A program made the translations under genes and the position numbers. Source: Pseudomonadota bacterium (GTDB lineage: Bacteria > Pseudomonadota > Gammaproteobacteria > Steroidobacterales > Steroidobacteraceae). From it: a stretch of DNA of 35,082 nt. Shown one piece after another: positions 21,195 through 30,491 of the stretch. Numbering within the stretch: the first letter of the stretch is position 1; each line of letters opens with the position of its first letter. A model generated the notes under the pieces. That model was not told where the DNA came from, did no database searches, and saw only the letters and a program-made list of their open reading frames with translations. The DNA is taken from the NCBI GenBank assembly GCA_947449495.1, contig CANFSB010000014.1, positions 1 to 35,082 of the forward strand, in the 5' to 3' direction.

Positions 21195-21692
21195 TCAGCC
21201 GACCTGCCCGCGACGGTGCGGCTGCACTACCGTGCCTACGACGGTCTGATAGGCCACGCTGAAGCGATCCAGTTCTGCAGCGGCCAGCGTCAGGTTCTCC
21301 CCTGGCGCCATATCAAAGGCATCAAAGCCGCAGCGCGCCAGCAGGAACACCTGATCCAGCAACACCGCCCCGGCAGCGCGCAGTTCACCGCAATAGCCAT
21401 AACGCTCACGCAGCATGCGTCCTTGCGTGTAGCCGCGACCTTCGGCGCTCTTGGGGAAGTTGACCACCACCAACTGCAACTGGGCAGCAAAAGGCAGCAG
21501 CTGCGCCTCGTCATCGGCAGGTTCCAGTTGCACGCCCAGCGCAGCGCCTGCGGGCGCTGGCGAGGCTAGCGTACCGGCTTGTACTGCAAGGTAATCGGCC
21601 AAGCTCACCACCACACCGGCTGCAGCAGCAGCTTCACCAGGCATAGACCAGGCATCGGCCTGGCACTGACGATGCTTAACGATTTGGCGCAT
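21195..21692 (-). CDS. DUF934 protein associated with sulfite reductase
   Basis: A 165-residue protein of the DUF934 family, found next to cysI in many beta- and gammaproteobacteria. Family core: VNFPKSAEGRGYTQGRMLRE (77-96), RYGYCGELRA (97-106), LLDQVFLLARCGFDAF (111-126). The biochemical role is unproven; a helper of the sulfite reductase (cofactor loading or electron supply) is the usual guess from gene neighbourhood. The ATG at 21692 lies inside cysI, 17 bases before its end, so translation is probably coupled. The frame is open further up but only within cysI. Confidence 0.88.
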   Translation of the reverse strand: MRQIVKHRQCQADAWSMPGEAAAAAGVVVSLADYLAVQAGTLASPAPAGAALGVQLEPADDEAQLLPFAAQLQLVVVNFPKSAEGRGYTQGRMLRERYGYCGELRAAGAVLLDQVFLLARCGFDAFDMAPGENLTLAAAELDRFSVAYQTVVGTVVQPHRRGQVG

Positions 21693-23322
21693 AGACCCGC
21701 TCACGAAACGGCGTGACGCCCACACGGCGCACGACTTGCAAGAACGTCTCGTCTTCCTCGCGGATCGAGACATACACATCGAGCAGCGCGGCCAGTGTGT
21801 TGGCCACCTCGAGCTTGGCTACCGACGGCCCGATGACCTCGCCCAGCGAACTGTCGCCACTGGCCGAACCGCCGATGGTGATTTGGTACCACTCCTCGCC
21901 ATGCTTATCGACACCCAAGATGCCGATGTGACCCACATGGTGATGGCCGCAGGCATTCATGCAGCCGGACATTTTGATTTCGAGCGGCCCCAGATCGTAG
22001 AGGTAGTCGATATCGGAAAAGCGCTCGGTAATCTGGTGCGCAATGCTGATCGAACTGGCATTGGCCAAGCTGCAAAAATCCAAGCCCGGGCAGCAGATCA
22101 TGTCGGCCAGTGTGCCAATATTGGCCGTGGCCAGGCCCAATGCAGTCAGGCGCTGCCAGGTTTCATACAGGTCTTGCTGACGCACTTCGCCCAGCACCAG
22201 ATTCTGATCGTGCGTACTGCGCACTTCGCCCGAACTGATGCGATCGGCCAGATCGGCAAGACCATCCATCTGTTCTGCGGTCATATCACCTGGGGCAATG
22301 CCCGGCGTCTTGAGCGACACCATCACTGCGCGATAACCACTGACTTTGTGGACGCGAGTGTTGTGCCGGTACCAAGCAACAAAGGCCGCTTCGCGGCCGG
22401 CAGTGACATCGATGTCGGGCAACTTCTCGTAGGGCAGCGGCCGGAAGTACTTGCGCATGCGATCGATTTCAACCACATCCAACAGCAACGCCGTGTCGCG
22501 TATCAGCGCCCATTCCTGCTCTACCGCGGCGCGGAAAGCCTCTTCACCCATGGCTTTGACGAGAATCTTGATGCGTGCCTTGTAGATGTTGTCGCGACGG
22601 CCCGCGCGGTTGTACACGCGCAGCACGGCTTCCAGATACGACAGCAAATGCTCGCGCGGCAAAAAGTCACGGATGACCTTGCCGATGATGGGCGTGCGAC
22701 CCAAGCCACCACCGACCAGCACTTCAAAGCCGATTTGGCCATCAGGGCCACGACGCAGGTGCAGGCCGATGTCGTGCACCTGTGAGGCAGCGCGATCGGC
22801 CGGCGAACCGGTGACGGCAATCTTGAATTTGCGCGGCAGGTAGTTGAACTCGGGGTGCAGCGTCGACCACTGACGGATGATCTCGCAGTACGGCCGCGGG
22901 TCATCAATCTCGTCGGGAGCAATGCCGGCGAAGTGATCTGCCGTGGTGTTGCGGATGCAGTTGCCGCTGGTCTGAATGGCGTGCATCTCGACGGTGGCAA
23001 GGTCCGCCAGCATGTCGGGCACTTCTTCGAGCTTGGGCCAGTTGTACTGGATGTTCTGGCGCGTGGTGAAGTGACCATAGCCACGGTCGTACTTGCGCGC
23101 CAGATGCGCCAGCATGCGCACCTGCCGGGTGGACAGCAGCCCATAGGGCACAGCCACGCGCAGCATGGGCGCGTGTGTTTGGATATAGAGGCCATTGCGC
23201 AGACGCAGCGGCTTGAACTCGTCTTCGCTGAGTTGGCCAGCCAGAAAGCGTTGGGTCTGATCGCGGAACTGTGCCACGCGCTCGGCGACGAGAGTGTGGT
23301 CCAAGGTGTCGTATCGGTACAC
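21676..23322 (-). CDS. cysI: Sulfite reductase hemoprotein, ferredoxin-type
   Basis: Six-electron reduction of sulfite to sulfide, using siroheme and a [4Fe-4S] cluster; 548 residues. Two ferrodoxin-like half-domains and two NIR_SIR domains. Siroheme contacts: GYGHFTTRQNIQYNW (81-95) and TSGNCIRNTTAD (118-129). Cluster ligands are Cys411 and Cys417 (CCPGLDFC) with Cys454 and Cys458 (MSGCMNACGHH). Nitrite reduction is a possible alternative in this superfamily, but the partner DUF934 and the cysH-cysG genes nearby favour sulfite. The start is GTG (23322, giving MYRYDTLD) without a clear ribosome site. Eighty-three bases separate it from ppc upstream. No CysJ-type flavoprotein is visible. Confidence 0.93.
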   Translation of the reverse strand: MYRYDTLDHTLVAERVAQFRDQTQRFLAGQLSEDEFKPLRLRNGLYIQTHAPMLRVAVPYGLLSTRQVRMLAHLARKYDRGYGHFTTRQNIQYNWPKLEEVPDMLADLATVEMHAIQTSGNCIRNTTADHFAGIAPDEIDDPRPYCEIIRQWSTLHPEFNYLPRKFKIAVTGSPADRAASQVHDIGLHLRRGPDGQIGFEVLVGGGLGRTPIIGKVIRDFLPREHLLSYLEAVLRVYNRAGRRDNIYKARIKILVKAMGEEAFRAAVEQEWALIRDTALLLDVVEIDRMRKYFRPLPYEKLPDIDVTAGREAAFVAWYRHNTRVHKVSGYRAVMVSLKTPGIAPGDMTAEQMDGLADLADRISSGEVRSTHDQNLVLGEVRQQDLYETWQRLTALGLATANIGTLADMICCPGLDFCSLANASSISIAHQITERFSDIDYLYDLGPLEIKMSGCMNACGHHHVGHIGILGVDKHGEEWYQITIGGSASGDSSLGEVIGPSVAKLEVANTLAALLDVYVSIREEDETFLQVVRRVGVTPFRERVYAPNR

Positions 23323-23405: not shown

Positions 23406-26192
23406 TCATCCGGTGGTCTGTAAGCCTTGGGCGATGCCGTTGACGCTGGCCAACACGGCCTGAAACAGGTCTTCATCTTCGCGTCCGCTGGCACGCCAAC
23501 GCCGCAACAGGTCTACCTGCATCAAATTCATCGGATCGACATAGGGATTGCGCAAGGCAATGGCCCTTTGCAGGGTCCGGTCACCGTCCAGCAGCTCGCT
23601 GGCTTGCTTGATTTGCAGTAGCTGCTCGCAGGCCAGCGCATGCTCGGTCTGCAATTGAGTGGCAAAACGCCGCAGCACCGGCGTGGCCAGTTGGTCGTAA
23701 TGGCGCGCGATCTGCAGATCGGTGCGTGCCAGCATGCGCTCTAGTTCATCGAGCATCTGCGAGAACAGCGGCCAACTGGCATAGCTGTCCCGCAGCGCCT
23801 GCACACCGTGGGCAGTCACAGCCGCGGCAAGGCCCGTGCCCGCGCCATACCAACCGGGCATCATGCAGCGCGATTGCGACCAGGCAAACACCCAGGGTGT
23901 GGTGCGGATGGACTGTAACGGGCTGGCGCCAGCACTGAGCGGACCCCACACGGTGCGCGAGCCGATCTGCATGCGTTCGATGACATCAATCGGCGTGACC
24001 GCCCGAAAGTAATCGTGGAAGTCTCTGTCCTCCATCACCAACTTGCGCCAGGTGTCGCGACTGGCGACAGACAGGGTCGTGGCGCACTGATGGGCCAGTA
24101 CCGACTCGGACTTGCCAGTGCCTGCAACGGTGGCGGCAGTGGCTAGACTCAGTGCGCTGAAAGCGCGCTCGAGGGTGCGCATCGCATTGGGACGCAGGCT
24201 GTAGCCTTGGCTGACGCTCTCGCCCTGTTCGGTGATGCGCAATACACCATGAGCGGTGCCCGCTGGCGCTGACTCAACCATGGCATCGATGCGCGACCCG
24301 CCGCGACCCAGACTGCCGCCGCGCGCATGAAAGATGATCGGCTCTAGGCTGCGCGCCGCAAAGGCCTGCGCCAGACTGCGCTGCGCGTCATAGGCAGATA
24401 GTCGTGTTGTCAGATAGCCAGTATCGCGACAGCCATGTGTGTATCCCACCAGCACACACTGACGACGACCGCGTGCCGCTAGATGTTGGCGGTACACCGG
24501 CTCATCAAGCACCGTGCCGATGATGGTTGCGCAATCGCGCTGTGACTCAAATGACTCGAATAATGGTGCTACATCCAGCGACACGGCACCGCTGCGCTTA
24601 TCGTAGGCACCGGCCCAACGGGCCAGCACCAGCGGCGCAAGCACATCGTCTGGACCACTGACACCGCTGACCACGTAATAACCGATCGCCTCGGCGCCAT
24701 AGCGGTTGCGCGCTTGCATAGCCGCATCAAATACTGCCAGCACGCGTTTGCCCAACGCATCAAACGATCCGGTGGGTCCGATATCGCGCTCCAGCAGTGC
24801 GACCAATCTGGCGTAACGTTCGGCCGGCGGACGCTGCATCCACTGCGGATCATCCAAGCCCTGCGCGAGCACCTCGTGATGCACATCAGCATGCTGACGC
24901 AGATCGAGCATGGCCAAGTGAAAGCCAAACGTACGAGCCCGTAGCACCAGACGATGCACCTGGTGATAACCGGCGTTGATACCCCGATTGGTCCGCAGGC
25001 TGTCGGTCACCAATTGCAAGTCATCCAAAAATTGCGCCGCAGACTCATAGCGGTTAGGGCGACCCTCGTAGGTGTGGCGCAGTCGCTCTGCCACCTGACC
25101 AAAGAAGCTGCGATAAGGCATGCGATCGTGCCGGCCTTGCGAGTCCAGTCGCGCGCCGGGCAACAGCACGCGGTATTCCTCTATGCGGCGCGCAAGCTCT
25201 GTTGAGATGGCCACTCGGCTGGCGCTCTGCGACAAAGACTGAGCCAAGCGCTGACACTCACCAAAATAAGCGTTGATGATCACTTGCTGCTGACGGGCCA
25301 AGGTTTCGCGAATGGTCTTGGCATGCACTTCGGGCGTGCCTTCCATGTCACCGCCGACCCAACTGCCAAAGCCCAGCATATTGGGCAGGTCCAGTTCGCT
25401 TGCCGGCTTGTGCCACAACTTCTCGATTGCAGTGCCCACTTCTTCATAGAACGCCGGCACGATGCGGTAGAGCACCTCCACCAGATGGAAGATGGCATGT
25501 TCGCGCTCATCGGCCACGGTCAGCCGGTTGCGCGGGTGCTCTTCGGTCTGCCAGCCAGCGGTCAACTCGGTGCGAATGCGTGTCCACAACTGTCGTCGCT
25601 CGCGCGGATCAAGATTGGGATTGAGCTTGTCGAGCAACACGCCGGCCATGCGCTGATTACGGCGAAGCTGTGTGCGGCGCGCTGACTCGGTGGAGTGGGC
25701 CACCAGCACAGGACCAATGCGCAAACTGGCCACCAGCGACATCAACTCATCCAGACCCATGCCCTGATCACGCAAGGTGGCTAAAGCCGCCTCGACACCG
25801 CTGGGTTGCGGGCGATCGCTGTCGGTCTGAAAGTATTCGCGGCGGCGGCGAATGCGATGCACACGCTCTGCCAGATTGACAGCACGGAACCACGTCGAGA
25901 ACGCGCGCACCAGATCACGCGCGACTTCAGGCGGGCGGCCGGCCACCCGCTGCGCCAACGCACCCTGATCGGCGCCATCGTCCTCACGCCGCTGAATGGC
26001 CGCAAGGCGATCACCCTCGACCAGGTCAAACAGCGGGTCCCCGCCCTGCTCACGCAGGATCTCGCCGACCAAGGCACCGAGTTGGTGTACGTCTTCGCGC
26101 AGCGCAAGGTGCTTGGCGGGGAACTGAATCTGATGTCGGTGCACGATGGTGACGATTCTACCCGCCGCGGTGCCCACAGTGGCATCCTGCAT
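23406..26192 (-). CDS. ppc: Phosphoenolpyruvate carboxylase-like protein with altered motifs
   Basis: PEP carboxylase family, 928 residues, similar throughout to the Xanthomonas-type enzyme that makes oxaloacetate from PEP and bicarbonate. Retained: His166, Arg432 (LDLRQHA), His622, Arg624 and Arg630 (FHARGGSLGRGG), Arg746 and Arg763 (RTTPWVFAW). Changed: the usual TAHPTE is VAHSTE (164-169), GGD(M/R)DGNP is GGDMEGTP (280-287), and GYSDSxKD is GYTHGCRD (583-590), where Arg589 replaces the lysine equivalent to E. coli Lys546. The C-terminus ends TTG rather than NTG. There is no frameshift or stop. Start is uncertain: ATG at 26192 has a weak GGA; GTG at 26144 would give the family's usual distance to LREDV. 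Activity should not be assumed. Confidence 0.88.
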   Translation of the reverse strand: MQDATVGTAAGRIVTIVHRHQIQFPAKHLALREDVHQLGALVGEILREQGGDPLFDLVEGDRLAAIQRREDDGADQGALAQRVAGRPPEVARDLVRAFSTWFRAVNLAERVHRIRRRREYFQTDSDRPQPSGVEAALATLRDQGMGLDELMSLVASLRIGPVLVAHSTESARRTQLRRNQRMAGVLLDKLNPNLDPRERRQLWTRIRTELTAGWQTEEHPRNRLTVADEREHAIFHLVEVLYRIVPAFYEEVGTAIEKLWHKPASELDLPNMLGFGSWVGGDMEGTPEVHAKTIRETLARQQQVIINAYFGECQRLAQSLSQSASRVAISTELARRIEEYRVLLPGARLDSQGRHDRMPYRSFFGQVAERLRHTYEGRPNRYESAAQFLDDLQLVTDSLRTNRGINAGYHQVHRLVLRARTFGFHLAMLDLRQHADVHHEVLAQGLDDPQWMQRPPAERYARLVALLERDIGPTGSFDALGKRVLAVFDAAMQARNRYGAEAIGYYVVSGVSGPDDVLAPLVLARWAGAYDKRSGAVSLDVAPLFESFESQRDCATIIGTVLDEPVYRQHLAARGRRQCVLVGYTHGCRDTGYLTTRLSAYDAQRSLAQAFAARSLEPIIFHARGGSLGRGGSRIDAMVESAPAGTAHGVLRITEQGESVSQGYSLRPNAMRTLERAFSALSLATAATVAGTGKSESVLAHQCATTLSVASRDTWRKLVMEDRDFHDYFRAVTPIDVIERMQIGSRTVWGPLSAGASPLQSIRTTPWVFAWSQSRCMMPGWYGAGTGLAAAVTAHGVQALRDSYASWPLFSQMLDELERMLARTDLQIARHYDQLATPVLRRFATQLQTEHALACEQLLQIKQASELLDGDRTLQRAIALRNPYVDPMNLMQVDLLRRWRASGREDEDLFQAVLASVNGIAQGLQTTG

Positions 26193-26194
26193 CA

Positions 26195-27100
26195 ATGTCC
26201 ATGTCTACACGGCCCAACCGGGCTGTCACCGGCCTGTTAATGGCTGCTGCAGGGGCCATCCTGTTTGCCAGCAAGGGTCTGTTCTCCAAGGCGCTGTTCC
26301 AGCAAGGGGTCGATTACCAGACCCTGACAGTGCTGCGCGCGCTGTTGGCGCTGCCGCTGTTTGCAGCTCTGGCTGTCCACCGCGGTCTGCGACTGCGCGG
26401 TTTGCCGCCGCGCGCTGTGGCGCAAGCCTGTTTTGCCGGCGTGTTGTGCTACACGGTCGGCGCCTTGATCGACTTCCACGCACTTGAACTCATCGACATC
26501 AGTTTGGAGCGCGCCCTGCTCTTCAGCTATCCGGCGATGGTGGTGTTGTGGACCGCGCTGGTACGTCGCCGCCTGCCCTCCCTGCCGGTGTTGGGCGCGC
26601 TGATATTGACCTGGGCGGGCATCTTGCTGGTGGTGGGCGGCTTTGATGCAGCAGCTTGGCAGCGCAACCTGACCGGCTCACTGATGGTGCTGTTCTGCGC
26701 CACCACCACTGCCACTTACTTTTTGGTGGGTGAGCGCAGCATTGCGCAGCTGGGCAGTACGGGCTTCACCGTCGTGTCGATGAGCGCGGCAACTGCGGGA
26801 GTGGTCTGCTGGTATCTGGCAACGCACCGGCTGGACGCCGTGCTACAGGTCAGTGGCCACGGCTGGCTATTGCTGATGGCCTTGGCCGTGCTGTGCATGT
26901 TCCTGCCCACACTGTTGCAGGCAGAAGGCATCAATCGCGTGGGCGCCGTGCGTGGCGCACTGGCCGCCACGGTTGGTCCACCTGCATCCCTGCTGTTTGG
27001 TGCAGTGCTGTTGGGCGAGCGCCCAGGCGTGATTCAGTTGGTCGGCACAGTGCTGGTGATCGCAGGCATCGTGGTACTGAGCCGCCCTTCGGCCACATAA
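26195..27100 (+). CDS. EamA/DMT-family transporter
   Basis: Inner-membrane drug/metabolite transporter superfamily protein of 301 residues with about ten helices in two EamA repeats. Conserved points are the early GAILFASKGLFSKALF segment, the repeat 1 end with ELIDISLERALLFSYPAMV, and the second repeat with GAVRGALAATVGPPASLL and GERPGVIQLVGTVLVIAG. Members export amino acids, purines and other metabolites; the substrate is not readable here. ATG at 26195 or 26201 (two residues shorter); no good ribosome site for either. The start lies 2 bases from the ppc ATG in the opposite direction. The 3' end overlaps the cytochrome-like gene by 67 bases, antisense. Confidence 0.88.
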   Translation: MSMSTRPNRAVTGLLMAAAGAILFASKGLFSKALFQQGVDYQTLTVLRALLALPLFAALAVHRGLRLRGLPPRAVAQACFAGVLCYTVGALIDFHALELIDISLERALLFSYPAMVVLWTALVRRRLPSLPVLGALILTWAGILLVVGGFDAAAWQRNLTGSLMVLFCATTTATYFLVGERSIAQLGSTGFTVVSMSAATAGVVCWYLATHRLDAVLQVSGHGWLLLMALAVLCMFLPTLLQAEGINRVGAVRGALAATVGPPASLLFGAVLLGERPGVIQLVGTVLVIAGIVVLSRPSAT

Positions 27101-28404
27101 CGGGCGAACTCCGGCTTGGTGGCAATCAAGATCTCGAGCCCCGCCTTGCGATCGGCCGCACTCCAACGATCAAAGCCGGCACTGGTGTCCTGCCCACGCA
27201 GCACGGCCAGCACGCGTGCATACACGTATTCGCGGCCCAACTGCGGCAAGCTGTCAAAATATTCGGTCAGAATGAAATAACTAACAGGCCAGCGAAATAG
27301 CGTGGTCTGCAAACTCAGCTGACGCAGCGAACGTCCCTGAGCGTCGCGCGGGCCACGTGCCTCAAGCGCCTTTTCGAAACCGGCATGGCCACTGATAGGG
27401 CTGGTGAACTCGATAGCATCAGCAAACAACAGGTGTCGCGTCAGCGGCTCGAGCAACGCTTTGACCGTGGTCTGCGACTTGACCGACAGCCCCTCCAGTT
27501 TGGTGGGCAGCACACCGCCCTCAAATCGCGGCAACAACGTGCGCAACTTGAAGTTGGCACGCGTCATAAAGTTCTGCGCGGCGGTTTGGTGTTCCAGCAC
27601 CATCAGTGCCACAACATCGCTTTGGTTGCTGATGTAAGGCTTGGTATTGAACAGACCATCCAGCGTTTTAAGATTCAGCCGCTGAGCATCACTGCGACCT
27701 GCCAGCAACGGATCACCGCTGACAGGCAAGTTGCCCAGATGCAGCTGCTTGCCCACCTGACCGGTGACATACCATCCACCCCAACGATCGCGCAGGGCTG
27801 AATGGTCCGAAGTCTCGTCGGAGGTTTCGCGCCCTGACGGGTTGTGCTCGCCGTCCACCGCTGCCGACAACACCATGAGGCGCGGCACGCCACCACCCAA
27901 CATGGAATAGGTGTCGTGACAGGTCAGGCACCGCCCTGCCTCCCGATCAAAACGCGGCGCGACCGGTGGGCGATTGACGATGCTGTAGAACACCAGGCCC
28001 AGCTCGCTGTCCACAGCAGCCAGCTCCAGCAGCGGCATGCCCTGCACAAAACCGACATAGGCCTGATCGTTGTAATAGACCGCACGCGGTGTGGCCGCCA
28101 CGATGCCATCGATCTGCAGACTGGTTTTGGAATACACCAACACTTGCGATGAGACATCGATGTTTAGCTCTTTGAGCAGTGCATCGAGGTAGCCGCGTGT
28201 CGGGTGATAGTCGAGCTTGACCTCGCCGCTATCAATGCGCTGCTGCAGCCGCGCAAATACGTTGTGTGTTGCCGCCGATGAATAGGCAATGCTGGGGTAA
28301 TCACTGTCATAGCGCAGTGAACCCAGCAATGGCGCATCGGCGGCTTGCGCTGCCGCTGCGGCCAAGGCCAGCAACAGAACACTTGAAACGAATCTAAACA
28401 GCAT
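27034..28404 (-). CDS. Secreted protein with one CXXCH heme motif, function unknown
   Basis: A 456-residue protein with a signal peptide (1-22, cleavage near AQA-AD) and a single c-type heme motif CLTCH (159-163). It resembles an uncharacterised conserved family from memory of segments such as RAVYYNDQAYVGFVQG (107-122), a PRFDREAGRCLTCHD block, RWGGWYVTG and DVVALMVLEHQ. The heme should be attached in the periplasm. No axial methionine can be assigned. The ATG at 28404 gives the signal peptide; the frame is open to 28509 but without support. 101 bases after the KefB-like gene, so co-transcription is possible. The last 67 bases overlap the EamA gene, antisense. Confidence 0.78.
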   Translation of the reverse strand: MLFRFVSSVLLLALAAAAAQAADAPLLGSLRYDSDYPSIAYSSAATHNVFARLQQRIDSGEVKLDYHPTRGYLDALLKELNIDVSSQVLVYSKTSLQIDGIVAATPRAVYYNDQAYVGFVQGMPLLELAAVDSELGLVFYSIVNRPPVAPRFDREAGRCLTCHDTYSMLGGGVPRLMVLSAAVDGEHNPSGRETSDETSDHSALRDRWGGWYVTGQVGKQLHLGNLPVSGDPLLAGRSDAQRLNLKTLDGLFNTKPYISNQSDVVALMVLEHQTAAQNFMTRANFKLRTLLPRFEGGVLPTKLEGLSVKSQTTVKALLEPLTRHLLFADAIEFTSPISGHAGFEKALEARGPRDAQGRSLRQLSLQTTLFRWPVSYFILTEYFDSLPQLGREYVYARVLAVLRGQDTSAGFDRWSAADRKAGLEILIATKPEFARYVAEGRLSTTMPAITSTVPTN

Positions 28405-28505
28405 CAACCACGCTCTAAAAATGTAATGCCAAACAGTGTGTGCCGCATCGGCCCCAAGCAATGCAGCCAACGCTCCACACAGAGTGTGACAACTACGTAT
28501 TTCCT
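28405..28505. other. Gap between KefB-like and cytochrome-like genes
   Basis: 101 bases, both neighbours on the minus strand. It contains a weak stem, CACAC-TCT-GTGTG read on the minus strand, shortly after the KefB-like stop, and an A+T-rich stretch before the cytochrome start that may hold a promoter. No small gene is evident. Confidence 0.3.
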
Positions 28506-30491
28506 TCAACCTGCCAGCAACAGGCTCTCGGCATGCTCCAGCGCTGCCGGCAATCCAAAGATGACCAATATGTCACCCTGACGCAGCGGTATGTCAGCAG
28601 CAGGTTGGCGACCCGTCACGCCCTGGCGCCGCAAGGCCACAAACGCCACCTCAGCACCGCGCTGGCGAACCTGATCCAGTGTACGGCCGACAGCCCAAGC
28701 TCCGGGAGGCAGCACGACTGTGGCTTGATGCTCTATCGGTGCGTCCAGCGAGGCATCGGATTCTTCACCCTCGCGCGGAATGATGGTTCGCAAAGTGGCG
28801 TAGCGACGACTGCGGATGTCTCCCACCGTGCGCACGACACGCGACACCGGCACCTGCAGCAACATCAGTACCTGCGACACCAGCATGAGGCTGGCCTCGA
28901 ACGTCTCGGGCACCACTTCGGTGGCACCTGCAGCGGTGAGCTCGGCGATACCGGCGTCGTCCTGGGTGCGCACCAGTATCGGCACATCGGTGCGCAGCAA
29001 GCGCACAGCCCGCACAATGCCCAGCGCCACTGCTGGATTAGCAAAACTGATCACCACGGCACTGGCAGTGCGCAAGCCGCAACTGAGCAAGACATCTTCA
29101 TCAGAGCAATCGCCATACACCACCGGCTCACCAGCCTGACGCGCCGGGCGTACGCGGGCGGTATCGAGATCAATCGCCACGTACTCAAAGCCCTGCGACT
29201 CCAGCACACGCGCAATGTTCTGACCCACACGGCCAAAGCCACACAAGATGACGTGCTCACGGGCTGCCACGGCATTGGTGGTTTCGGCTTCGCGCTCACT
29301 GGCGCGTTGTGGCGGGCCGCGTTCGGCCAGCAGCCGACGCGCAATGGGCTTGTTGAAACGGATGCCAAACGGTGCCAGCACCATAGTGAGCACCATGGTG
29401 ACCAGCAGTACCTGAGCAATGCTGGCCGGCACTGCGTTGGTAGGCAGCAACACTGTCAGCAATGCCACACCAAACTCGCCGCCACCACCCAATACCATGC
29501 CGGTACGCAGTGCTTTGAAGTGCGTGCTGACAAACGGGCGTGTGACCAATGTCGCCACGCCAACCTTGCCAACAGTGAGGACCACCAGCAGCAGGAAGAT
29601 CACCCAGAACTCGTTCAGGAGCAGATGCAAATCCAGCAGCATGCCGACCGAGATGAAAAACAAGCCCAGCAGCAATTCGCGAAACGGCCTGATGACAGCC
29701 TCGATCTGATGGCGGTATTCGGTCTCTGCCAACATCATGCCGGCAAGAAATCCGCCCAAGGCCATAGAAAGCCCGGCGCTCTGAGTAATCCAGCCAGCAG
29801 CCAGCACCACCAGCAGCACTGTCAGCGTGAACAGCTCCTTGAGCTGACTGCGGGCGATCTCCACCAGCAAAGGTCGCAGCAACAAGCGGCCCACGGCAAA
29901 CACGGTAAGCAGTGACACTGCGCCAAGACCCAATGCGCGCAGTGCACTGGCAGGACTGAACGCACCGGCCAAGGCGCCGGTACCCACCGCAGTGGCCACG
30001 GCCAGCAGCGGTACGAAGGCAATGTCCTGAAACAGCAGGACGGCCAGCGCAGTGCGGCCATGCGTGCGATTGACTTCGCTCTGTTCGGTGAGCTGGCGGA
30101 TGACGATGGCAGTAGATGACATCGAAATGGCGCCACCCACCACGATGGCTGGCAGCCAATCAACGCCGCTCCACCACGCCAACAGCGCAAACACTGTGCC
30201 GGTGCACACCACCTGCAGAAGACCTAAGCCAAACACTTCACGACGCATCGCCAGCATGCGCGGCCAGGAGAACTCCAGACCCAGTGTGAACAACAAAAAC
30301 ACCACGCCGATCTCTGCCAGCAGATGCGTGCCGTTGGTTTCAGCCATCAATGCCAAGGCATGAGGCCCCAACAGCATGCCGACAAACAGATACCCCAGAA
30401 TGGCGGGCAGTCCCAATCGCCGGGCGACCGCCACCACGCCGACAGAGGCCAGCAGTAGCAATAAAACTTGGGTCAGTGGTTGGTCGACCAT
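28506..30491 (-). CDS. KefB/YbaL-like CPA2 cation:proton antiporter
   Basis: A 661-residue monovalent cation:proton antiporter-2 family protein. Membrane part about 1-385 with roughly 12-13 helices, including LFTLGLEFSW (67-76), SMSSTAIVIRQL and VLLFQDIA (151-158). A cytoplasmic RCK/TrkA-N domain follows (about 412-540) with the dinucleotide motif VILCGFGRVGQ (414-424) and an acidic VAIDLD. A TrkA-C domain (about 560-655) closes it. Such proteins export K+ or Na+ for H+ under nucleotide control; Kef proteins respond to glutathione adducts. No KefF/KefG ancillary gene is adjacent. ATG at 30491 has a GGA five bases upstream. It diverges from the SYLF gene across 98 bases. Confidence 0.92.
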   Translation of the reverse strand: MVDQPLTQVLLLLLASVGVVAVARRLGLPAILGYLFVGMLLGPHALALMAETNGTHLLAEIGVVFLLFTLGLEFSWPRMLAMRREVFGLGLLQVVCTGTVFALLAWWSGVDWLPAIVVGGAISMSSTAIVIRQLTEQSEVNRTHGRTALAVLLFQDIAFVPLLAVATAVGTGALAGAFSPASALRALGLGAVSLLTVFAVGRLLLRPLLVEIARSQLKELFTLTVLLVVLAAGWITQSAGLSMALGGFLAGMMLAETEYRHQIEAVIRPFRELLLGLFFISVGMLLDLHLLLNEFWVIFLLLVVLTVGKVGVATLVTRPFVSTHFKALRTGMVLGGGGEFGVALLTVLLPTNAVPASIAQVLLVTMVLTMVLAPFGIRFNKPIARRLLAERGPPQRASEREAETTNAVAAREHVILCGFGRVGQNIARVLESQGFEYVAIDLDTARVRPARQAGEPVVYGDCSDEDVLLSCGLRTASAVVISFANPAVALGIVRAVRLLRTDVPILVRTQDDAGIAELTAAGATEVVPETFEASLMLVSQVLMLLQVPVSRVVRTVGDIRSRRYATLRTIIPREGEESDASLDAPIEHQATVVLPPGAWAVGRTLDQVRQRGAEVAFVALRRQGVTGRQPAADIPLRQGDILVIFGLPAALEHAESLLLAG

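Follow-up and report, generated by a model that had tools for sequence, protein, structure and literature searches.

The closest described counterpart of the gene reported here is the phosphoenolpyruvate carboxylase (PEPC) of Escherichia coli, Ppc (PDB 1fiy and 1jqn; Pfam family PF00311). In this enzyme we take Asp543 and Glu506 to be the metal ligands, Arg396, Arg581, Arg699 and Arg713 to form the substrate site, Lys546 to serve in bicarbonate use, and Lys773, Arg832 and Asn881 to form the aspartate site. His138, His579 and Arg587 are reported to be important for its catalysis (PMC11832675). The gene in question is a ppc-like gene on contig CANFSB010000014.1 of assembly GCA_947449495.1, from a gammaproteobacterium of the family Steroidobacteraceae, order Steroidobacterales. 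The whole stretch of DNA analyzed, 35,082 nucleotides, is referred to as the window. The window protein is homologous to E. coli Ppc over its full length, with about 29% identity, and shares its fold and most substrate residues, but differs at Asp543, Lys546, Lys620, Lys773, and Asn881. Canonical PEPCs from other families of the same order (L055–L058 and L061–L065) fall in the same clade as the window copy, here called type A, with 43–46% identity. Unlike the window copy, they keep Asn881 and all ten catalytic residues scored below.

Two further systems are alike in part. Plant class-2 PEPC includes a bacterial-type subunit (BTPC), presented in three papers as a divergent PEPC with a regulatory effect (PMC13172252, PMC5854131, PMC8100219). 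The likeness lies in a divergent PEPC that affects regulation. However, BTPC forms a complex with an active plant-type PEPC, whereas the genome that contains the window has no second PEPC. The prozyme of trypanosome S-adenosylmethionine decarboxylase is likewise reported to be a retained inactive enzyme fold (PMC5201418), but it acts with an active paralogue, and none was found in the window genome. Pseudoenzymes as such are a known kind. No report of an inactive bacterial PEPC clade was found among the papers listed in searches of the open-access literature. We propose, at a probability of roughly 0.58, that the type A proteins of this family are PEPC pseudoenzymes, retained for a role other than carboxylation.

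The minus-strand open reading frame at 23406–26195 is uninterrupted, and translation from the ATG at 26192 yields 928 residues. Which start codon is used is uncertain: for most relatives the alignment begins only at about residue 8–20 of the window protein, G001 and G002 align from residue 2, and the ATG of the divergent neighboring gene lies at 26195.

Residues were numbered by aligning the window protein to E. coli K-12 Ppc (locus L073). The first-pass annotation, made by reading the sequence alone, had described three altered motifs in an intact PEPC frame. Their codons were re-read and agree: GTG GCC CAC TCC ACC GAG encodes VAHSTE, GGC GGT GAC ATG GAA GGC ACG CCC encodes GGDMEGTP, and GGA TAC ACA CAT GGC TGT CGC GAT encodes GYTHGCRD. 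The methionine of GGDM, in place of the arginine of GGDR, is ordinary for type A, being present in 59 of 59 family rows with a letter at this position and in 16 of the 19 outside rows. The alignment also places Arg589 at Lys546, as had been proposed, and bears out the suspected replacement of residues tied to aspartate inhibition, with Arg823 at Lys773 and Thr926 at Asn881. It reveals two further changes, His586 at Asp543 and Gly663 at Lys620. The most important is the exchange of Asp543 for histidine, by which one of the two canonical metal ligands is replaced; the other, Glu506 (Glu546 in the window copy), is kept. Eight of the ten scored sites are retained, namely His138, Arg396, Glu506, His579, Arg581, Arg587, Arg699, and Arg713; His138, His579, and Arg587 correspond to window residues His166, His622, and Arg630. 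A read error, named in the first pass as something that would refute the observation, is very unlikely because a second assembly, G002, agrees with the window copy in all three motifs and at each of the ten catalytic sites. The window and G002 proteins are 98% identical, with a synonymous distance of 0.20 between the genes.

The window protein was matched in 53 of 60 relatives searched. PF00311 is present in 205 of 217 genomes searched from the window's family (coded f1) and in 111 of the 114 of good quality; the other three have no match. Sequences were sorted by best match into type A (window-like), type B, and type C, and a tree was built by a quick method under LG+G4 with SH-aLRT support. 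The 59 family type A rows group together in a single clade (support 100), which sits within type A rows from other families, and types B and C are clades separate from type A. Meeting long branches were flagged in the tree (for example L053 with L054, and L059 with L060), making the placement of those rows unsure. One divergent PPC, L051, was excluded from the alignments.

Ten E. coli positions were scored for catalytic residues: 138, 396, 506, 543, 546, 579, 581, 587, 699, and 713. Rows dropped for gaps at these sites number 6 of 63 in the family type A set and 3 of 19 in the outside type A set, and include the changed copies L066, L054, and L031. Of the 57 complete family rows, 44 are changed at one or more of the ten sites and 13 are intact. 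The change is non-conservative (other than D/E or K/R) in 36 rows and confined to D/E or K/R exchanges in 8. No change occurs in the canonical clades (0/30 for type B, with all 30 rows from the family; 0/8 for type C, with six rows from the family). Outside the family, 16 of the 19 type A rows can be scored, of which 12 are intact and 4 changed. The first-pass view of the window gene as a divergent form is supported, and the divergence is a trait of the whole family.

The changes did not arise once. The non-conservative state requires at least 13 changes on the tree, and the same holds on a tree built without the ten columns. Position 543 alone changed at least 13–14 times within the family clade; among 59 family rows it is occupied by D in 30, E in 14, A in 7, H in 4, and Q, G, Y, and R in one each. 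Arg396, Arg581, Arg587, Arg699, Arg713, and His579 are lost in various relatives without a common replacement pattern. The lost catalytic residues differ from one relative to another, a pattern that points to catalysis having been relaxed or lost. It also undercuts the first-pass view of the motif changes as the features of one altered enzyme, although the changes themselves are real. At sites beyond the ten, none of the 60 family type A rows has Asn881 and 8 have Lys620. Across all type A rows, loss of Asn881 accompanies catalytic change, with Asn present in 3 of 68 changed and 15 of 29 intact copies and one partial row excluded. Its loss was not used as proof, since within the family none of 46 changed and none of 13 intact copies has Asn, and the comparison is uncorrected for relatedness.

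The account that a second PEPC took over and left type A to decay is ruled out. Among family genomes with a single PF00311 match and a type A sequence listed, 27 of 36 have changed sites too, and residue loss is thus independent of a second copy. One family copy with three changed sites, L035, falls outside this list of 36. The complete 3.47-Mb genome G035 is an example of a family member whose single type A copy is changed, carrying D543A and R581Q. A link between decay and the presence of pyruvate carboxylase or isocitrate lyase is only suggestive. Four family genomes have neither enzyme: G025 has an intact type A copy; in G007 and G024 the type A copy is changed and type B is present as well; in G004 a changed type A copy is accompanied by a truncated type B piece. 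In G004, a genus mate of the window genome, the type B ppc match (L167, 6117–6560, minus strand) covers only residues 3–161 and lies away from the contig end; judged by its sequence, it is a truncated or broken canonical copy.

Selection acts differently on the motifs and on the remaining protein. A universal core was defined from near-invariance across E. coli, type B, type C, and outside type A sequences; it comprises 83 columns, 47 of them in catalytic motifs (whose ranges we chose) and 36 elsewhere. In family type A the motif columns average 5.64 changes per column, compared with 3.19 elsewhere (Mann–Whitney p = 0.001). With a 96-column core defined from E. coli and types B and C alone, the values are 5.80 and 4.13 (p = 0.006). 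The control sets run the other way, with 0.02 in motifs versus 0.75 in other columns for type B (core defined without B) and 0.10 versus 0.62 for 13 canonical outside type A rows (96-column core). For all 19 outside type A rows, changed ones included, the values are 1.86 and 1.84 (p = 0.24). The normal order of constraint, in which motifs evolve more slowly than the other core, is reversed in family type A.

The genes nonetheless evolve under constraint. The ratio of nonsynonymous to synonymous substitution (dN/dS, by Nei–Gojobori) is 0.056 between the window gene and G002 and 0.11–0.22 in five other family pairs, one further pair being saturated. Values in the family clade are similar to those of canonical genes (0.07–0.21 in type B and 0.04 in type C). 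Internal stops are absent from nearly all family copies among the matches listed. The first-pass statement that the gene is not decaying, which rested on the lack of a stop or frameshift, is upheld by the low dN/dS against its nearest relative and by the near-universal presence of PF00311 in good-quality family genomes. His138, Arg144, Trp248, and the TEQGE motif are invariant or nearly so in the family clade. Ten positions are near-invariant in the family yet variable in outside type A, a number given with no control for how many clade-specific conserved positions any clade would show; at a few of them the residue is shared with most type B rows. These family-specific positions, three of which are listed in Table 1 and which also include Arg221, Arg230, and Glu251, would be the best lead to what the protein binds.

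The overall fold appears to be preserved. PF00311 matches residues 31–928 at 692.5 bits, covering model positions 1–919 of 919, above the curated cut-off. The NCBIfam PEPC equivalog NF000584 also matches over the full length, but at 698 bits falls below its cut-off of 815 bits. This cut-off is to be read with caution, as it is also missed by one type C copy that keeps the full set of ten residues (768 bits) and by family type A copies without any change at the ten sites. All five tested family type A copies score below it and the two tested canonical outside type A copies above it. Nor was a low PF00311 score taken by itself as a measure of decay, because intact copies of family type A and of type C score low too. 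The best-scoring solved relative of the window protein is E. coli PEPC (1fiy; E = 2e-87). A model predicted from a nine-row alignment has a mean local confidence (pLDDT) of 76 and a predicted template modeling score (pTM) of 0.77. Foldseek aligns it with 6v3o, 1jqn, and 8oj9 over the full length with E ~1e-37, a TM score of ~0.75, and a root mean square deviation of ~9. Model and fold search together support the view that the window protein keeps the PEPC fold. The window model is least confident in active-site loops. This was rejected as a sign of degeneracy, since a canonical type A control built from the same nine rows shows largely the same weak loops.

The genome to which the window belongs, as contig 14, is 2.58 Mb in size and is rated 100% complete. 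A search for a second ppc, as the first-pass annotation had advised, was made with the profile over the whole genome, and the window gene is the single PF00311 match. Archaeal-type PEPC (PF14010) and isocitrate lyase have no match in this genome, and neither ATP-type phosphoenolpyruvate carboxykinase nor a full-length pyruvate carboxylase was found in it, the only trace of the last being a weak PYC_OADA match of 78.5 bits. The genome does encode a GTP-type phosphoenolpyruvate carboxykinase and a 774-residue frame with malic enzyme matches. On its contig 68 (L164, 4828–7800, minus strand) lies a set of genes in which a 489-residue protein with HMGL-like and PYC_OADA domains, the site of the weak match, adjoins a biotin carboxylase, with a frame containing a biotin-site-like motif just upstream. 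The best NCBIfam match of the 489-residue protein is pyruvate carboxylase subunit B (281 bits, cut-off 402), and the set looks like a split pyruvate carboxylase. Routes to oxaloacetate other than PEPC may thus exist in the window genome.

As in known pseudoenzymes, conserved catalytic residues have been lost within a retained fold, and the changed gene is under purifying selection. The repeated loss of different active-site residues in a kept protein suggests that it does something other than the textbook reaction. For the clade, the simplest account is that purifying selection holds the fold while the carboxylase site is free to drift, which would make the protein a pseudoenzyme, or at least one no longer valued chiefly for carboxylation. 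Several observations weigh against this account. Among the family rows, 13 are intact at all ten sites and 8 more show only D/E or K/R exchanges. All 58 family type A rows scored at position 138 keep the histidine, which would be odd if catalysis were gone. No family-wide ppc operon or partner gene was found over 60 family loci. An active PEPC would also be useful to the window genome, which lacks isocitrate lyase, a full-length pyruvate carboxylase, and a second PEPC. The window copy itself makes a weaker case and may represent an early or mild stage, with altered activity still possible: only two of its ten sites are changed, histidine can bind metal, and lysine to arginine is a mild exchange.

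Some of these observations favor the strongest rival, an active but altered PEPC in which His586 binds the metal and Arg589 handles bicarbonate, giving a weaker or tuned, aspartate-insensitive enzyme that the genus needs for oxaloacetate. The eight catalytic residues kept in the window copy, the invariant His138, and the common conservative exchanges (D to E, E to D, K to R) in the clade are what such an enzyme would show, and the lack of isocitrate lyase, full-length pyruvate carboxylase, archaeal-type PEPC, and a second ppc would make it valuable. Against it stand the loss of different residues in different relatives with no shared replacement pattern, and motif columns that change more than the other core columns, the opposite of canonical PEPCs. 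The presence of the split pyruvate-carboxylase-like operon, GTP-type carboxykinase, and malic enzyme also counts against it. We consider this rival somewhat unlikely. A new enzyme built on the PEPC scaffold, with another substrate or acceptor, is improbable. The near-invariance of His138, Arg144, Trp248, and the TEQGE motif and the existence of clade-specific conserved positions would fit it, but the catalytic positions drift differently by lineage without settling on a new motif, and no family-wide operon hints at a substrate.

That the gene is on its way out, under relaxed selection leading to eventual loss, is highly improbable. The relaxed motif sites, the three good-quality family genomes without PF00311, and some pairs in another family of the order (f15) with dN/dS of 0.28–0.33, above canonical pairs, are in its favor. 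It is contradicted by the family dN/dS, which is like that of canonical copies, by the lack of internal stops in nearly all copies among the matches listed, across lineages that differ at half of their residues, and by the 111 good-quality genomes that keep the gene. Finally, a BTPC-like regulatory subunit of a second PEPC is unlikely, as it requires an active PEPC in the same cell and the window genome has one PF00311 match and none to PF14010. In the first-pass description of a maintained divergent or regulatory form, the words maintained and divergent are supported, and the word regulatory is not.

If the clade does consist of retained pseudoenzymes, the following picture would apply. The PEPC fold would be kept in these proteins, with selection for carboxylation of phosphoenolpyruvate gone or nearly so. 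To judge from the residues, standard binding of Mg/Mn, phosphoenolpyruvate, and bicarbonate would be gone. Aspartate feedback would be lost with the replaced residues. The protein would be retained most likely as a scaffold or sensor that binds a partner protein or metabolite. Oxaloacetate would come from the GTP-dependent carboxykinase, malic enzyme, or the split pyruvate-carboxylase-like operon, all of which have genes in the window genome.

Similar changes occur in other families of the order. PF00311 was found in 152 of 158 genomes of the order searched. Among the matches listed, full-length copies of family f7 score about 850–906 bits, and f1 type A and single f15 copies score at most 806. 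Twenty extra copies were hand-picked from the score list of families f15, f6, f4, and f7, the f15 copies all coming from the lower-scoring ones and the set not being a random sample; changes at the ten sites are found in 12/12 of f15, 3/4 of f6, 1/1 of f4, and 0/3 of f7. In three of the f15 copies (L170, L171, and L175) every exchange is R to K. Two f6 copies, one of them L182, share with L066 of the first set the changes His138 to Pro, Lys546 to Asp, and Arg713 to Asp, with all three genes full length and dN/dS among them of 0.13–0.18. Since His138 is known to be important, normal PEPC function is not expected of the f6 copies. The dN/dS of f15 pairs is 0.12–0.33, the upper part exceeding the canonical range. 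Over 98 type A rows, the canonical residue is kept at the ten positions in from 65% (position 543) to 96% (position 138), and many other core residues are kept in at least 98%. Seven f15 genomes (G281, G284, G289, G299, G301, G309, and G321) have two PF00311 matches, one of them high-scoring and, where both are listed, one low-scoring; the high-scoring copies are apparently canonical PEPCs beside a changed type A.

Catalytic residues were apparently lost separately in f1, in f6, in f15 with f12, and, mildly, in f4. It is tempting to suggest, tentatively and at somewhat less than even odds, that a non-carboxylase second function of the order's type A PEPC predates the catalytic loss and is by itself the reason why at least four lineages preserve the protein, in which case canonical copies may moonlight as well.

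Table 1. Positions of the ppc-like gene, its changed and family-specific residues, and neighboring genes in the window
Feature	Position	Strand	Remark
ppc-like gene, type A PEPC homologue, 928 aa	23406..26192	–	Full-length PF00311 match; stop codon 23406–23408
VAHSTE, residues 164–169 (E. coli TAHPTE 136–141)	25686..25703	–	His138 kept, Pro139 to Ser
GGDMEGTP, residues 280–287 (E. coli GGDRDGNP 250–257)	25332..25355	–	Met normal for type A
GYTHGCRD, residues 583–590 (E. coli GYSDSAKD 540–547)	24423..24446	–	Asp543 to His586, Ser544 to Gly, Lys546 to Arg589
Gly663 at E. coli Lys620	24204..24206	–	Lys in 8/60 family type A rows
Arg823 at E. coli Lys773	23724..23726	–	Alignment to E. coli Ppc
Thr926 at E. 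coli Asn881	23415..23417	–	Asn in 0/60 family type A rows
Gln366	25095..25097	–	59/59 in family clade; Leu in 18/19 outside type A rows
Asp356	25125..25127	–	58/59 in family clade; Arg in 15/19 outside type A rows
Asp470	24783..24785	–	58/59 in family clade; outside (19 rows) Arg 7, Gly 4, Asp 2, Asn 2, others
Nitrite/sulphite reductase family hemoprotein, downstream of ppc	21676..23322	–	Downstream in 8/60 family loci by tblastn
DUF934 protein, partner of hemoprotein	21195..21779	–	
CPA2-type cation/proton antiporter (Na_H_Exchanger, TrkA_N, TrkA_C), upstream of ppc	28506..30491	–	

Neighboring genes were clustered over the 60 family loci; the ppc frame was recognized in 50 of them, and in 8 a longer antisense frame was taken instead. 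With no neighbor family-wide, an operon was dropped as a clue to function. The hemoprotein lies downstream of ppc in 8 of the 60 loci, seven in genomes of the window's genus and one in another, and reaches the cut-off for none of the NCBIfam models that match it (best 215 bits versus 594). The CPA2-type antiporter is found near type A ppc in several other genera too. Between antiporter and ppc, a 491-residue protein (window 27037–28509, minus strand) with a CLTCH heme-binding-like motif and no Pfam or NCBIfam match is conserved in several genomes of the genus. A block resembling ExbB/ExbD/TonB, named by reading the sequences, is seen upstream of type A ppc in several genera (L111, L119, L125, L126, L128, and others). 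Outside the family, 10 of 19 type A loci (L055–L059 and L061–L065) encode a 160-residue protein that we take to be YajQ, either immediately upstream of ppc or one frame further off; none of the 60 family loci does so.

PEPC is a textbook enzyme of central metabolism, and annotation and metabolic models infer carboxylation from the presence of its gene. If a whole family indeed carries full-length PEPC homologues that are unable to carboxylate, such inferences would be wrong for that family, and the function for which the protein is retained would become a concrete question, open to ordinary assays in E. coli.

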